A DNA stretch of 64,000 bases from Exiguobacterium antarcticum DSM 14480 (GTDB lineage: Bacteria; Bacillota; Bacilli; Exiguobacteriales; Exiguobacteriaceae). Under the pieces are notes generated by a model. That model did not search any database, had not been told where the DNA came from, and saw only the letters and a list, made by a program, of their open reading frames with translations. This document shows, piece after piece, positions 9,725 through 34,216 of this stretch. Position 1 is the stretch's first letter; each line of letters begins with the position of its first letter. Location of the stretch: assembly GCF_000685865.1 (NCBI RefSeq), contig NZ_JMKS01000003.1, positions 744,001-808,000 of the forward strand, in the 5' to 3' direction. A program made the translations under genes and the position numbers.

Positions 9725-10624
9725 TTAAATCTTCAAGAATCGACCGAGTGACGTCGTTGATCCCCAAACACCGATGAAGGCGCCTAACGCCAGCAAGATG
9801 ACGGAGACTTGGACAGACAGCTCACCTGGCGGAATCAGTGTGAAGATGGACGCGTTTAGCGAAACGAGTTGTGGTTGCAGGGCGTTATACGTCACTTCGT
9901 ACCCGAAGTAGACGACGGCAATCGGAATCAATGCCCCGAGAATACCCATCAATAATCCTTCAATGAAGAACGGTGCACGGATGAAGCCGTTTTTCGCACC
10001 AACAAGTCGCATGATCTCAATTTCGCGACGACGTGAGAAAATCGTCACCTTGATCGTATTCGAAATCAGGAACATCGCCATGAATGTCAAACCGACAATC
10101 AGGATGATTCCACCAATCCGAACCCCTTCAAGGAAGTTGAACATCTTTTCAACATAATCTTCCCCATATTCGACACTATCTATATTTTCCATTTTTTTGA
10201 CGGTAGTTGCAATAGTTTCTGTCTCATTTGGTGAAGTCGCTTTGACGATATACCGGTCGTGGAGCGGATTATCCTTTTCAACTGACTGATACGCCTGTGA
10301 CCCTTCGCCAAGCTGTTCCTTGAAGCGGTCCAGTTCATCTTCTTTTGAGCTATAACGGACAGACTTGACGCCCGGCATCTGCTCTAAGTTCTTTCCGACT
10401 GCATCGATTTTTGCTTGATCGGATTCACGTTCGACGAACACTTGGATTTCGACGTCTTTTTCGACGTTATCGGAAATCTTGTTGACGTTAAACATGACCA
10501 TCGCAAAAATTCCTACTAGTAATAAGGTCACGGTAACAGCACTGACGGAAGCAAATGTCATCCAGCCGTTTCGGACGAGACCTTTTGCCCCTTCCCGTAA
10601 ATGACGGAATCCATTAAACTTCAT
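9725..10624 (-). CDS. ftsX: Cell-division ABC transporter permease FtsX
   Basis: 299 aa from the ATG at 10624 ([16 protein letters not shown]), which has AAAGGA upstream; a longer in-frame start would run into ftsE. One transmembrane segment lies near residues 22-45. A ~120-residue extracellular domain follows, and three more segments near the C-terminus complete the four-helix FtsX topology. FtsX transmits the ATPase state of FtsE across the membrane to a peptidoglycan hydrolase. It overlaps ftsE by 11 bases, indicating translational coupling, and is followed by the M23 hydrolase gene. Confidence 0.95.
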   Translation of the reverse strand: MKFNGFRHLREGAKGLVRNGWMTFASVSAVTVTLLLVGIFAMVMFNVNKISDNVEKDVEIQVFVERESDQAKIDAVGKNLEQMPGVKSVRYSSKEDELDRFKEQLGEGSQAYQSVEKDNPLHDRYIVKATSPNETETIATTVKKMENIDSVEYGEDYVEKMFNFLEGVRIGGIILIVGLTFMAMFLISNTIKVTIFSRRREIEIMRLVGAKNGFIRAPFFIEGLLMGILGALIPIAVVYFGYEVTYNALQPQLVSLNASIFTLIPPGELSVQVSVILLALGAFIGVWGSTTSLGRFLKI

Positions 10625-11300
10625 AGCCGTACATTCCTTTCTCTTCGTCTCGGACGATTTTTCCACCGTCGATCGCTAACACACGATGACGCATCTTATT
10701 GACGATATCTCGGTTGTGGGTCGCCATTACGACCGTTGTCCCACGGCGATAAATCTCTTCGAATACTTCCATGATCTCCCATGCGGTATCCGGATCAAGA
10801 TTTCCGGTCGGCTCGTCGGCGATGACGAGTGACGGACGGTTGACGATGGCTCTCGCGATCGAGATCCGCTGTTGTTCTCCACCGGATAGTTCGTCAGGAT
10901 AGTTCCGTTCCTTATGCTTTAGCTTCACGAGATCGAGGACCTCAAGCACTTTCTTACGGATTTGCGATTGATCTTCCCCGACGACTTCCAGGGCAAACGC
11001 AACATTTTCATAAACCGTCAGTGACGGGAGTAGTTTAAAGTCTTGGAAGATGACGCCGATTTGGCGACGGAGTTCGGGGATTTGGCGGTTTTTGAGCTTA
11101 CCGACTTCAATTCCTTTAAATAAAAATGAACCGCTTGTTGGTCGTTCTTCGCGGTACATCATTTTCATGAATGTCGATTTCCCGGCACCGGACGGCCCGA
11201 CGATATAGACGAATTCACCTTGGTTGATCGTCAGATTGACTTCACGAAGTGCCGTGACACCGTTCGGATAAATTTTACTGACTTGTTGCATCTTGATCAC
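10614..11300 (-). CDS. ftsE: Cell-division ABC transporter ATPase FtsE
   Basis: 228 aa if translation starts at the GTG at 11300 (sequence [14 protein letters not shown]); AAGGATG is placed 8 bases ahead of it. This is the usual FtsE length. A longer frame from 11342 would begin inside the hairpin of the neighbouring mobile element and is unlikely. Walker A is GPSGAGKS, the signature LSGGEQQR, and Walker [13 protein letters not shown]. Partner of FtsX. Oddity: the gene's native upstream region is occupied by an IS200/IS605-like element ending ~30 bases before the start codon, so its promoter may lie in or beyond that element. Confidence 0.95.
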
Positions 11301-11330
11301 TTGCTTCACATCCTTAGAGAATTTACGAAC

Positions 11331-11721
11331 GAGAAAGCCCATGTTGGGCGTAGCCCGTCTTTAGACATGGGATGAACGTGAGTTCGGATGTCTTAACATC
11401 CGACACTGCGGGTATATTTATATCATAGACAAGTACAAGTCTCTAAAACGCCTATGTCCATTGCCCTTTGATAATCGTATACGGTTCGGTCACGAAACCA
11501 TGTGACCGGTAAAACGATGTTTGTCGTCATGCAAAAGACGAAAAAACATGTAATGGACTACTCAGCAACGGCCTGTGGTCGATCGTAAAAGCCGACCAGC
11601 CTGAAGTCTGTCTCAGGAGGGGTGATGGCACACCCTCATCTGAAGGCTTGAGTAAAACAGAAATGGACTGCGCTCGCACAAGCACTTTAGAATCTCACGG
11701 TTTCAATCGTGGGCGTGTCAA
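11331..11721 (+). mobile_element. Deleted IS200/IS605-type element with omega-RNA-like right end
   Basis: This gene-free stretch between cccB and ftsE has recognisable IS200/IS605 (TnpB) end structure. The right end GAATC-TCACGG-TTTCAA-TCGTGGG-CGTGTCAA (11690-11721) has the same layout as the 3' end of TnpB omega (re)RNAs. These carry GAATC, a short hairpin and a terminal TCAA, after which a guide would start. The left side holds a nested hairpin (CCCATGT...ACATGGG, 11338-11371). A plus-strand frame near 11565-11700 reads like a decayed TnpB C-terminus (ACGRS.KPTSLKSVSGG, then VKQKWTALAQAL) with in-frame stops. No transposase gene remains. Exact termini and family name were not verified by search. 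Confidence 0.6.
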
Positions 11722-11818
11722 TGATGGTAATCAGATAGGTCTTAAAACCTACCGATTCCCATTATAACAGGCAACAATTTTTAAGCACATTACAATCAAA
11801 TGTCATTTCCGACCTCTT

Positions 11819-29286: not shown

Positions 29287-29656
29287 CTACGCGCATTAGC
29301 TTTCGCTAATGATAAGACTATATCTTCATCCTAGATTTACTAGGAGCTGGGCGCTTCCCCCGCCGTTTACGGAGTACGGATTTCATAACCATCGGAAGTC
29401 TCCATTAGGTCGTCTATCCTAGTCGTTGAACCTTCACCAAGGTTTCCCTACAGGTGCTTGGCTGCTGATTGTCCAATCCTTGACGTTTTTCAGAACGGTC
29501 ACGCTCGCCGTTTCCAGCCACGTTGTCGTACATCAAGGCTCTCAGGAGTTCCAGCAATTCACCCAGTCATGCTCTGATTAGTTACCCAATCAGACGCCCG
29601 GTGGAATCAAATTACCGAAGGAGTTGAAGCACGCCTTGGGGTGTTTGATTCGATTG
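29287..29656 (-). ncRNA. Group I self-splicing intron in the flagellin gene
   Basis: On the minus strand the core elements are in the right order. The P-type element ACAATCAGCAGCCAAGC is at 29472-29456. R is GTTCAACGACTAGG at 29431-29418, and S is AAGATATAGTC at 29326-29316. The R and S segments pair through GACTA/TAGTC (P7). P8 is CCTAG...CTAGG (29344-29330), and P9 is ATTAGC-GAAA-GCTAAT (29310-29295). A likely internal guide GAGCC (29541-29537) pairs with GGCTC at the proposed 5' site (29660-29656). Boundaries come from aligning the two flagellin tails: exon 1 ends ...TTGGCT at 29657 and exon 2 starts CAAGCG at 29286. The exon-terminal U would pair with A rather than the usual G. No homing endonuclease is encoded. 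Group I introns have been reported in flagellin genes of thermophilic bacilli. Confidence 0.8.
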
Positions 29657-30454
29657 AGCCAACATTGCTTGTGCAGCTTGCGCAAGAATTGAGTTCTTTG
29701 TTTGGTTCATCATTTCTTTCGCCATATCAACGTCACGAACGCGTGATTCAGCCGCTGTTAGGTTTTCAGAAGATGTTTTGAGGTTGTTGATTGTGTGCTC
29801 GAGACGGTTTTGAGTCGCACCAAGCTTAGAACGCTCTGCTGAAACTGTTTCAATCGCATCGTTTACTGTAGTGATGGCTGTATTAGCACCAGTTTGAGTA
29901 GTAATGTCAATACCAACTGTTGTAGCTTCGTCTGTTCCAGTACCTACTGCAAGTGCAGTTGCATCCATGTTACCGATTACCAATGTAAGATTTTGTGATT
30001 CGTTAGCCCCAATTTGGAAGACTTTACCATCAGCATCTGAACCATCCAGCAATTTTTGAGTGTTAAACTCAGTAGTTTTAGCAATACGTGTAGTTTCTTT
30101 TGCTAACTGAGTAAATTCTTTTTGTAATTCTTCACGATCAGTAAGAGTGTTAGTATCATTGGATGATTGAGTAGCTAGTTCACGCATCCGTTGGAGAATG
30201 TCATGCGTTTCGTTCAATGCACCTTCAGCAGTTTGAATCAACGAGATTCCGTCTTGTGCGTTACGTGAAGCTTGATCAAGTCCACGAACTTGTCCACGCA
30301 TTTTTTCAGAGATTGCAAGACCAGCTGCATCGTCGCCCGCTTTGTTGATGCGAAGACCTGAAGCGAGTTTCTCCATTGATTTCCCTTGAGCTGAAGAAGC
30401 TGCCGAAAGTTTGTTGTGTGTGTTAAGAGCTGTAATGTTGTGATTAATAATCAT
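29612..30454 (-). CDS. hag: Major flagellin Hag (unspliced reading)
   Basis: 280 aa from the ATG at 30454 with GGAGGG upstream; the longer open frame lies in the leader. The N-terminal D0/D1 is MIINHNITALNTHNKLSAAS ... LASGLRINKAGDDAAGLAIS. The C-terminal D1/D0 is ESRVRDVDMAKEMMNQTKNSI ... SNQTPQGVLQLLR. Only a short variable centre is present. Structural subunit of the filament and the target of CsrA/FliW control in B. subtilis. The last 15 codons (29656-29612) lie inside the predicted group I intron. After splicing, codons 1-266 would instead join the tail at 29286-29242, giving an equal 280-aa product. Confidence 0.95.
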   Translation of the reverse strand: MIINHNITALNTHNKLSAASSAQGKSMEKLASGLRINKAGDDAAGLAISEKMRGQVRGLDQASRNAQDGISLIQTAEGALNETHDILQRMRELATQSSNDTNTLTDREELQKEFTQLAKETTRIAKTTEFNTQKLLDGSDADGKVFQIGANESQNLTLVIGNMDATALAVGTGTDEATTVGIDITTQTGANTAITTVNDAIETVSAERSKLGATQNRLEHTINNLKTSSENLTAAESRVRDVDMAKEMMNQTKNSILAQAAQAMLAQSNQTPQGVLQLLR

Positions 30455-30460
30455 TGTAAT

Positions 30461-30510
30461 TTCCCTCCATAGGAATAAATTTTTTGTCTCTTTGAAGATC
30501 CTTCTTCTCC
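30461..30510 (-). promoter_or_regulatory. Candidate CsrA sites in the hag leader
   Basis: GGA motifs occur at the ribosome site (ATGGAGGGAA, 30470-30461) and twice ~30-40 bases upstream (CGGAGAAGAAGGATC, 30511-30497). B. subtilis CsrA dimers bind one site over the Shine-Dalgarno and one upstream in the hag leader. csrA and fliW are encoded at 46.4-47.1 kb. The pairing structure of this leader was not computed. Confidence 0.45.
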
Positions 30511-30577
30511 GAGATGCGCCCCCTGGCCGGCCCAAGAGTAGCGCGGTGGTTGTAGTCGATGACTGCTTCCACTCTAT

Positions 30578-30603
30578 ATATCGTCGCCGTACCAAAATGT
30601 TTA
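30578..30603 (-). promoter_or_regulatory. Sigma-D promoter of hag
   Basis: TAAA, 14 bases, GACGATAT on the minus strand (consensus TAAA-N15-GCCGATAT). It gives a leader of ~115 bases before the hag ATG. Confidence 0.75.
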
Positions 30604-33883: not shown

Positions 33884-34145
33884 AAAGACGCCCTCTATGC
33901 CACAGCAAAAGCTGATGCATAGAGGACGCCTGTATCCGCGCGGTGCCACCTCTAGTTGAGATTAAAAATCTCCTCTTGTCGCTGGTCCAACAACCAGCTA
34001 GCCCGGTAACGGGGGCAACCGTCCTGTCTACTGAATCGTTCAACAGGCTCTCAGCGGTCCATTCCCTAATCAGCTTACCGCGTCAGGCTCTCACCTTTCC
34101 TGACTCGCTTTGTCGGCAGTGTTGACGGTACTTACTCCGCGTCGT
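33884..34145 (-). promoter_or_regulatory. T-box riboswitch, specifier UGG (tryptophan)
   Basis: The T-box core AGAGGTGGCACCGCG is at 33953-33939 (consensus AGGGUGGNACCGCG). A strong terminator (GACGCCCTCTATGC arm, TTTTG) lies at 33930-33884. Stem I starts with helix GCGG (34140-34137) and AGTA. On its 3' side, GAA, TGG, A and then CCGC close the same helix, so TGG at 34061-34059 occupies the specifier position as in glyQS leaders. The antiterminator bulge UGGC would pair with acceptor end GCCA, fitting the G73 discriminator of bacterial tRNA-Trp. Together these point to tRNA-Trp control of the peptide-binding protein gene. Confidence 0.9.
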
Positions 34146-34216
34146 TGATTTGTTTGATATGGCTTAACTTGTTGTTTACTTTACACGGCTTGTTTTCAAC
34201 TGTCAACGAAAAAAGC

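Follow-up and report, generated by a model that had tools for sequence, protein, structure and literature searches.

Elements of the IS608 type are recognized through hairpins that are preceded by AAAG at the left end and by GAAT at the right end, together with the sequences TTAC and TCAA, and the IS608 transposase TnpA requires only the element ends. Some IS605 elements that lack tnpB reportedly carry omega-RNAs, as Meers and colleagues are said to have described in 2023. In other untranslated RNAs, namely CRISPR arrays, boxA has a shielding function. The gamma-proteobacterial boxA consensus is given as GYTCTTTAANA (PMC5725501). According to Nety et al. (2023, PMC10278001), nucleotides 825-875 of the AmaTnpB mRNA, adjoining RuvC-II, inhibit cleavage, and the conservation of this region is posed there as a question. 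Here we analyzed a stretch of 64,000 nucleotides of Exiguobacterium antarcticum DSM 14480 (the window), which contains what is almost certainly a satellite, that is, a non-autonomous transposon with an omega-RNA. Its features are collected in Table 1.

Table 1. Features of the satellite element and its surroundings, in window coordinates.
Feature	Position	Strand	Basis or remark
ftsE-like ABC ATPase gene	10614..11300	-	ABC_tran; GTG inferred at 11300
ftsE ribosome-binding site AAGG	11312-11315	-	intact, by eye
Target/TAM remnant TTAG	11314..11317	+	TTAC in the other 12 inspected copies
Whole satellite element	11318..11721	+	start and end common to copies elsewhere; eight genomes of the genus lack the insertion
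Left end: AAAG guide tetranucleotide and hairpin CCCATGT...ACATGGG	11334..11371	+	sequence; IS608 recognition set
Hairpin TCGGATGT/ACATCCGA, 5' of leader	11384..11403	+	sequence
-10-like TATATT	11413-11418	+	no -35 box; 3' of hairpin 11384..11403
Structured RNA leader	11425..11567	+	covariance models, covariation; no counterpart in autonomous elements
Leader hairpin hp0, AGAC-AAGTACAA-GTCT, then CTAAAAC	11427..11442	+	alignment, motif scan
P1 (11456-11462 pairs with 11552-11558)	11456..11558	+	three outer pairs of relatives lost in window
boxA-like segment GCCCTTTGATAA	11463..11474	+	sequence comparison; relatives GYTCnTTGAAAA-like
Core: P2 (11474-11478/11514-11518), hp2 (11487-11493/11502-11508), GTAAAAC	11474..11518	+	covariation, R2 model
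P3 hairpin CGTC-ATGCAAAA-GACG, then AAAAAAC	11525..11540	+	same type as hairpin within tnpB
Omega-RNA scaffold, through to right end	11572..11721	+	homology to 3' ends of tnpB elements; alignment folding
TnpB C-terminus remnant PVVDRKSRPA, then stop	11572..11604	+	read by eye; PVVDGNSQSA, then stop, in intact genes
Right end: GAAT, hairpin CTCACG/CGTGGG, TCAA	11690..11721	+	sequence; scaffold alignment
Predicted guide, 16-20 nt, flanking DNA	11722..11741	+	position; G012 empty allele

The element is 404 bp long, runs from 11318 to 11721 on the forward strand and carries no gene. Because its AAAG and GAAT hairpins, TTAC and TCAA match the IS608 recognition set, we assign it to the gene-less IS608-type elements of the IS200/IS605 family; consistent with this, the hairpins with their AAAG (left) and GAAT (right) guides are subterminal, and no target duplication was found. 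A sequence-only reading of the window had placed a tnpB-less IS200/IS605 element at 11331-11760. The element itself stands, but its boundaries do not, and 11722-11760 are flanking DNA. That reading was right that GAATC-hairpin-GTGTCAA terminates at 11721 and that no nuclease gene is left. Copies at other sites share TTAC followed by AGATTTTACGAACG or close variants. Among 13 inspected copies (the boundary of L075 being placed by eye, and two pairs of copies lying at orthologous sites), TTAC precedes 12, the window copy having TTAG, and TCAA terminates all 13.

Counting the window's own, the order search yielded 16 copies spread over 9 of 38 genomes, with seven copies in a single genome (G023), and the leader described below is conserved among the 16. 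A second copy in the Exiguobacterium antarcticum genome matches the window element at E 1.0e-120; with these copies, a chance resemblance is excluded. The match in G005 ends at base 382 of 404 since the right-end hairpin of that genome is longer, and no match was found among the phage records searched. The comparison with strains lacking the insertion, which had been proposed as a check, found the target site empty in eight genomes of the genus (for example, CCTTACTTGATTAC/TGATGGTGATCAG). Relative to these empty sites, the window site is missing 8 bases, TTGATTAC, beside the left end. At an orthologous satellite insertion of the window's genome and G012 (L069 and L058), there is a 6-nt difference, TGTTAC, exactly at the right end; this stretch, lost at the right junction, and the stretch lost at the left end of the window copy both end in TTAC.

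Behind two intact tnpA-tnpB pairs of the same genome we found the same right end, as the proposed genome search for tnpB elements sharing these ends had anticipated, and the 3' ends of these two elements are 84-85% identical to 11572-11698. The decayed C-terminal frame of TnpB that had been noticed is a real one (Table 1). Folding of 20 aligned copies (8 satellites and 12 tnpB elements) gave five stem-loops, including the right-end hairpin, with double changes at 7 of the 51 predicted pairs. The first scaffold hairpin of the window copy, in which one inner pair is broken, has a compensated C-G form; the same form occurs in three tnpB elements and may therefore have been inherited. In addition, an omega-RNA loop of the window copy has lost 10 nt, with its stem kept, which corrects the earlier claim that the RNA-encoding right end looks intact. 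The guide had been predicted to start at 11722, and there we agree: over the first 20 bases, a comparison by eye with the empty allele of G012, next to TTAC, gives 19 matches, as would be expected of TnpB homing.

The two resident elements have identical tnpB open frames, and the tnpA, of the Y1_Tnp type, is 100% identical in the second element. Their TnpB, cognate to the satellite and located at G000:C3 1169211-1170284, scores 82.7 bits with the TNB zinc-ribbon domain and 30.2 bits with OrfB_IS605, just below the cut-off of 30.5 (32.4 in the genome search). The left end of these elements resembles that of the satellite at its extreme end, and in elements of several relatives the first 24 bases match by 92-96%. 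From the presence of copies at different sites we infer that the satellite can be mobilized in trans. At a threshold of E <= 1e-60, a cognate TnpB was detected in 42 of 398 genomes of the class, comprising 11 of the 14 with the leader and 31 of the 384 others (Fisher p 1.4e-9, with relatedness left out of account); in the family alone, it was detected in 7 of 9 leader-bearing genomes and 8 of 29 others (p 0.016). The refuting conditions proposed with the sequence-only reading came out in its favour: besides the shared right end and the empty site, a cognate TnpB is present in 15 genomes of the family. No TnpB at this threshold was found in the leader-bearing genomes G005, G009 and G344, so some satellites are stranded or served by another TnpB. 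A plasmid record named Klebsiella grimontii (L077) contains an IS605 element with a Bacillus-like TnpB; its assignment to Klebsiella looks doubtful, as a neighbour is annotated as DUF4257, a domain linked to Bacillus.

The right end had been treated as the sole part of the element that matters, and the conserved leader at 11425-11567 was overlooked. The autonomous elements examined contain no sequence matching the interval between the left end and the scaffold, and the leader does not derive from tnpB. From nine copies of the window's family only, we built a covariance model (R1) that spans 11425-11567; it matched copies in B. carboniphilus (E 2.5e-16) and B. velezensis (E 2.8e-15), and 14 of 398 genomes of the class, belonging to 6 of 145 genera. 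Leader copies are present on one B. velezensis plasmid, on six near-identical B. subtilis plasmids and on a B. carboniphilus phage-plasmid, and the record of Exiguobacterium sp. KRL4 (L129) carries the same leader. Scanning a species-genome collection for the P3 motif gave 30 stretches from Bacilli and a few Clostridia (Desulfosporosinus and a Pelotomaculum metagenome-assembled genome), of which R1 recovers 29, some of them partially, at E <= 0.1, missing L115; run against the 31 pattern loci, it misses L115 and L142. As these loci were fetched through the P3 motif, their P3 hairpin does not constitute independent evidence. The viral match L142, which R1 misses and which by eye continues in a tRNA-like manner, was set aside as a chance match. 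In L095 and L112, an extra hairpin-UUAAAAC unit resembling a duplicated hairpin module is located 5' of P1.

The leader alignment (A4, from 33 selected sources) comprises 34 copies, 33 of them distinct. In it, 92.8% of the cells are paired, compared with 74.0% after shuffling, and 26 of the 30 pairs show double changes. Covariation reaches a score of 0.464, compared with 0.149 (sd 0.010) for shuffled and at most 0.109 for slid alignments, a comparison that the fitting of the alignment to the model favours. Furthermore, conservation is not limited to the helices, but extends to the loops and joining strands. At gathering thresholds, an Rfam 15 search of the whole window gave no match on the element; at E up to 5, the element had two matches of chance level (E 2.9 and 3.4), and two Bacillus copies had no match. 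Since no credible Rfam 15 match exists, a group I or group II intron, an IStron and other Rfam RNAs were rejected as the identity of the leader. Two further structural proposals were also dropped: a pairing between a leader loop and the boxA-like strand, which one Bacillus copy shows on inspection by eye, is absent from the copies of the family, and a conserved switch in which an extension of P3 competes with P2 fails by eye in G005 and G012.

When the window's genome was searched with the boxA-like pattern, the sole matches were, unexpectedly, two copies of a different gene-less element, L173 (on G000:C1) and L174 (on G000:C5, truncated). In this second satellite family, the left end and the last 106 nt, at the omega-RNA end, are common to seven resident tnpB elements, and the interval between them is absent from those seven. 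A model of the boxA-like segment plus P2 and hp2 (R2), built without L173 and L174, matches them at E 3.1e-8 and 5.3e-7, respectively; its best match in the tnpB loci searched has an E of 0.21. A single genome thus contains satellites of two tnpB families with a common RNA core, and no other finding argues more strongly for a functional module, as opposed to debris, in the leader. R2 matches 57 of 398 genomes of the class, in 32 of 145 genera, with up to 13 copies per genome. Taking the best-scoring locus of each of 30 of these 57 genomes, we found an IS605-type right end (by a pattern that allows CTCAA ends) within 300 nt after the core in 30 of 30 loci, versus 1 of 30 control stretches. In tblastn searches of 87 loci, seven TnpB frames detected TnpB-like sequence in four (L060, L061, L121 and L222), never inside an element, and one TnpA of the window's genome detected no TnpA-like sequence; the query frames of L034 and L037 are not TnpB, and the match between L037 and L074 was left out. 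A resemblance of the other satellite families to HEARO was rejected, as none of 12 core loci had an Rfam 15 match at E <= 0.5. L225, L226, L230, L231 and L207-L213 represent additional satellite families that combine this core with different scaffolds, and several of them have a promoter-like TTTACA-17-TAnnnT pair 5' of the core. Among the 30 core loci, a loose promoter pattern (TTTACA-17-TAAAAT-like) is present 5' in only five.

Following the first strand of P1, the leaders contain a GYTCnTTGAAAA-like sequence that is degenerate in many of them. The 16S-23S spacer of the window's genome, which we located through the 23S model (the boxA pattern search itself met no rRNA), contains TCGCACCTTGAAAACTG, and has 14 nt in common with the G009 leader and 11 nt with the G023 leader. 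The second copy of the window's genome, read via the G012 copy that is identical in the alignment, has 9 nt in common with its own spacer. The leaders of the window, G005 and G030 share no boxA stretch with this spacer, the window copy none of at least 8 bases. Ten other genomes were queried for rRNA and a usable spacer was obtained from G049 only, where leader and spacer share 12 nt, GTTCTTTGAAAA. Antitermination is a reasonable but unproven role for this segment, and that the leader acts through boxA antitermination can be put forward as a tentative proposal.

Outside the satellites, all matches of R1 at E up to 1 fall at one position of tnpB (five loci, individually weak, E 0.087-0.99). This position, directly 3' of RuvC-II at about codons 267-274 of the frame used, contains the hairpin ACGGC-AAGAACAA-GCCGT-AAAAAC, which is nearly invariant at the codon level, and whose loop type and A-rich tail are those of hp0 and P3 of the satellites. 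Contrary to the motif-scan loci, the tnpB loci were collected through the similarity of their proteins, which makes their hairpin independent evidence. In 27 tnpB genes (30 loci, less L157, L165 and L168, which an open-frame rule excluded), the synonymous codon identity in windows of 8 codons is 0.948 at the hairpin, a value reached by none of 5000 column permutations, versus a mean of 0.42 (sd 0.08) outside the peaks. The hairpin is the strongest synonymous-site constraint of the gene; a second peak corresponds to the start of the omega-RNA. Three tnpB genes have a compensated hairpin, ACGAC...GTCGT, together with an Ala-to-Thr change; L167, kept in the codon test, has no hairpin, and L168 has it in another form. 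A strict motif of stem, loop and tail, scanned on both strands of 1.1 Mb in which overlapping loci are counted repeatedly, occurs at 225 places, namely 50 within frames of tnpB, 166 that have an IS605-type right end after them and 9 others (4 contig ends, 4 satellite copies whose right end the pattern missed, and the viral L142), and at none in five block-shuffled versions of the same DNA. The hairpin could have the same function in the leader and in tnpB without being a mimic.

We consider it somewhat probable overall that the element is a satellite transposon whose RNA combines an expression or loading leader with an omega-RNA and is served in trans by the resident TnpA and TnpB. Use of the satellite family's RNA in trans by TnpB is quite probable, and the proposal that the leader is an expression or loading module falls just short of likely. 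In this scheme, the resident TnpA would mobilize the satellite, and a promoter just 5' of 11425 would give rise to an RNA of roughly 300 nt consisting of the leader, the omega-RNA and 16-20 nt of flank. The boxA-like and hp2 part of the leader would prevent transcription of this untranslated RNA from terminating prematurely, and the leader hairpins that resemble the one of the tnpB message may aid the capture, processing or regulation of the satellite RNA by TnpB. TnpB loaded with this RNA would then cut the empty allele (TTAC plus guide), by which the satellite would be retained or copied back, as has been proposed for autonomous elements.

On the other hand, the element might be a plain deletion derivative of the MITE or PATE kind, in which the omega-RNA is a passenger of the right end required by TnpA, and the interior either is junk or assists transposition as a DNA structure. 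The absence of genes, the divergence of the window copy and the sufficiency of the ends for TnpA, as established for IS608, are in line with such an origin. Against it stands a leader that is not tnpB sequence, whose helices are maintained through double changes across several genera, whose loops and joining strands are conserved as well, and whose core is common to satellites of different tnpB families; we regard a plain deletion derivative as rather unlikely. The constrained hairpin also lends itself to another explanation, namely that the leader is an inhibitor in which copies of a cis-inhibitory hairpin of the tnpB mRNA damp TnpB or titrate a factor, protecting the satellite or its host. 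The strong synonymous constraint on a hairpin of the same type adjoining RuvC-II agrees with this, as does the position of the inhibitory mRNA region reported for AmaTnpB (PMC10278001), where the presence of the same hairpin is putative. Nevertheless, the fusion of the leader to an omega-RNA that looks intact points to use and not to inhibition alone, and other satellite families carry the core without hairpins of the hp0/P3 type; an inhibitory leader is in our view improbable.

The position of the window copy invites a third explanation, in which a non-coding RNA or the insertion itself was retained to tune ftsE. We take the gene name from the sequence-only reading, our analysis supporting the ABC_tran domain. 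As that reading stated, the element lies within 30 bases of the gene start, namely 18 bp before the GTG that we infer, and a transcript of the element would be antisense to the ftsE leader. Its further claims, that the insertion must affect ftsEX expression and may be domesticated, fared worse: inspection by eye shows an undamaged ribosome-binding site and start, which leaves an effect on expression possible, and the insertion was found in this genome only, the site having been read in 8 of the 18 other genomes of the genus. As the site is empty in those eight, domestication as an ftsE regulator was rejected; moreover, no conservation at the site was observed and the copy is diverged, so that a role in ftsEX regulation is very improbable indeed. 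Among the aligned copies of the genus, that of the window has diverged furthest (85-88% to the other copies, which match one another at 88-100%) and looks old: besides its TTAG target, it has lost three outer pairs of P1, the boxA-like segment is changed and 10 nt of a loop are deleted. A consensus scan found no promoter before its leader, and we doubt that this copy is still active. Elsewhere on the reverse strand of the window, two other RNAs reach the Rfam gathering score: a group I intron at 29294-29614 (84.1 bits), which begins at the 3' end of a gene at 29612-30595 that by eye is flagellin-like, and a T-box leader at 33919-34154.

The preferred account, that of a satellite served in trans, has implications beyond this locus. 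It presents stand-alone omega-RNAs as probable RNA genes that are being maintained, and not as wrecks, with a leader core common to 32 of the 145 sampled genera of the class, and it makes the leader a candidate handle with which to express or regulate TnpB guide RNAs. The constrained tnpB hairpin falls in the neighbourhood of the inhibitory region of the AmaTnpB mRNA, and the question of conservation posed in PMC10278001 is now directly testable. A bolder extension, which we offer with reservation, is that a previously undescribed modular leader is the hallmark of a large class of IS605 satellites without genes, present in Bacilli and some Clostridia, that it has spread between satellites of different tnpB families, and that it acts both by antitermination and by recruiting TnpB, through its boxA-like core and its hairpins akin to a regulatory hairpin of the tnpB message. 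If this were true, gene-less satellites would compete with or control the elements that supply TnpA and TnpB, much like Alu with LINEs.

It remains to place these satellites among the systems described before. In full-text literature searches, which mostly exclude subscription papers, none of the matches listed, judged by title and start of abstract, concerned a conserved leader on tnpB-less IS605 elements, and six terms for tnpB-less elements do not occur in PMC12558985, on archaeal circular omega-RNAs. Elements that lack tnpB and carry omega-RNAs are already known, and the new part would be the conserved leader. Thus, with PATEs and other tnpB-less IS200/IS605 derivatives the satellites share IS605-type ends, the lack of genes, multiple copies, resident helpers and an omega-RNA scaffold at the right end, and they add to these a conserved, covarying leader between the left end and the scaffold that is common to satellites of different tnpB families. 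Like the TnpB omega-RNA (reRNA) of IS200/IS605 elements, the satellite RNA has a 3' hairpin, a TCAA end, a guide derived from the flank and a scaffold homologous to the 3' end of tnpB elements; unlike it, it is predicted not to derive from the tnpB message and to have its own leader at the 5' side. The comparison with the inhibitory region of the AmaTnpB mRNA (Nety et al. 2023, PMC10278001) concerns an RNA-level element in tnpB beside RuvC-II, of which the present hairpin is a putative counterpart; here, a short hairpin is deduced from codon constraint and is also found in satellite RNAs. Finally, as at the rRNA boxA antitermination sites (PMC5725501), a boxA-like segment is located near the start of an untranslated RNA, and the likeness extends to the rRNA spacers, the copies of two relatives resembling the spacer of the window's genome and those of G049 resembling their own. 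In contrast to the boxA of rRNA and CRISPR arrays, the satellite segment is degenerate in many copies and is embedded in a covarying fold, where its function is putative.
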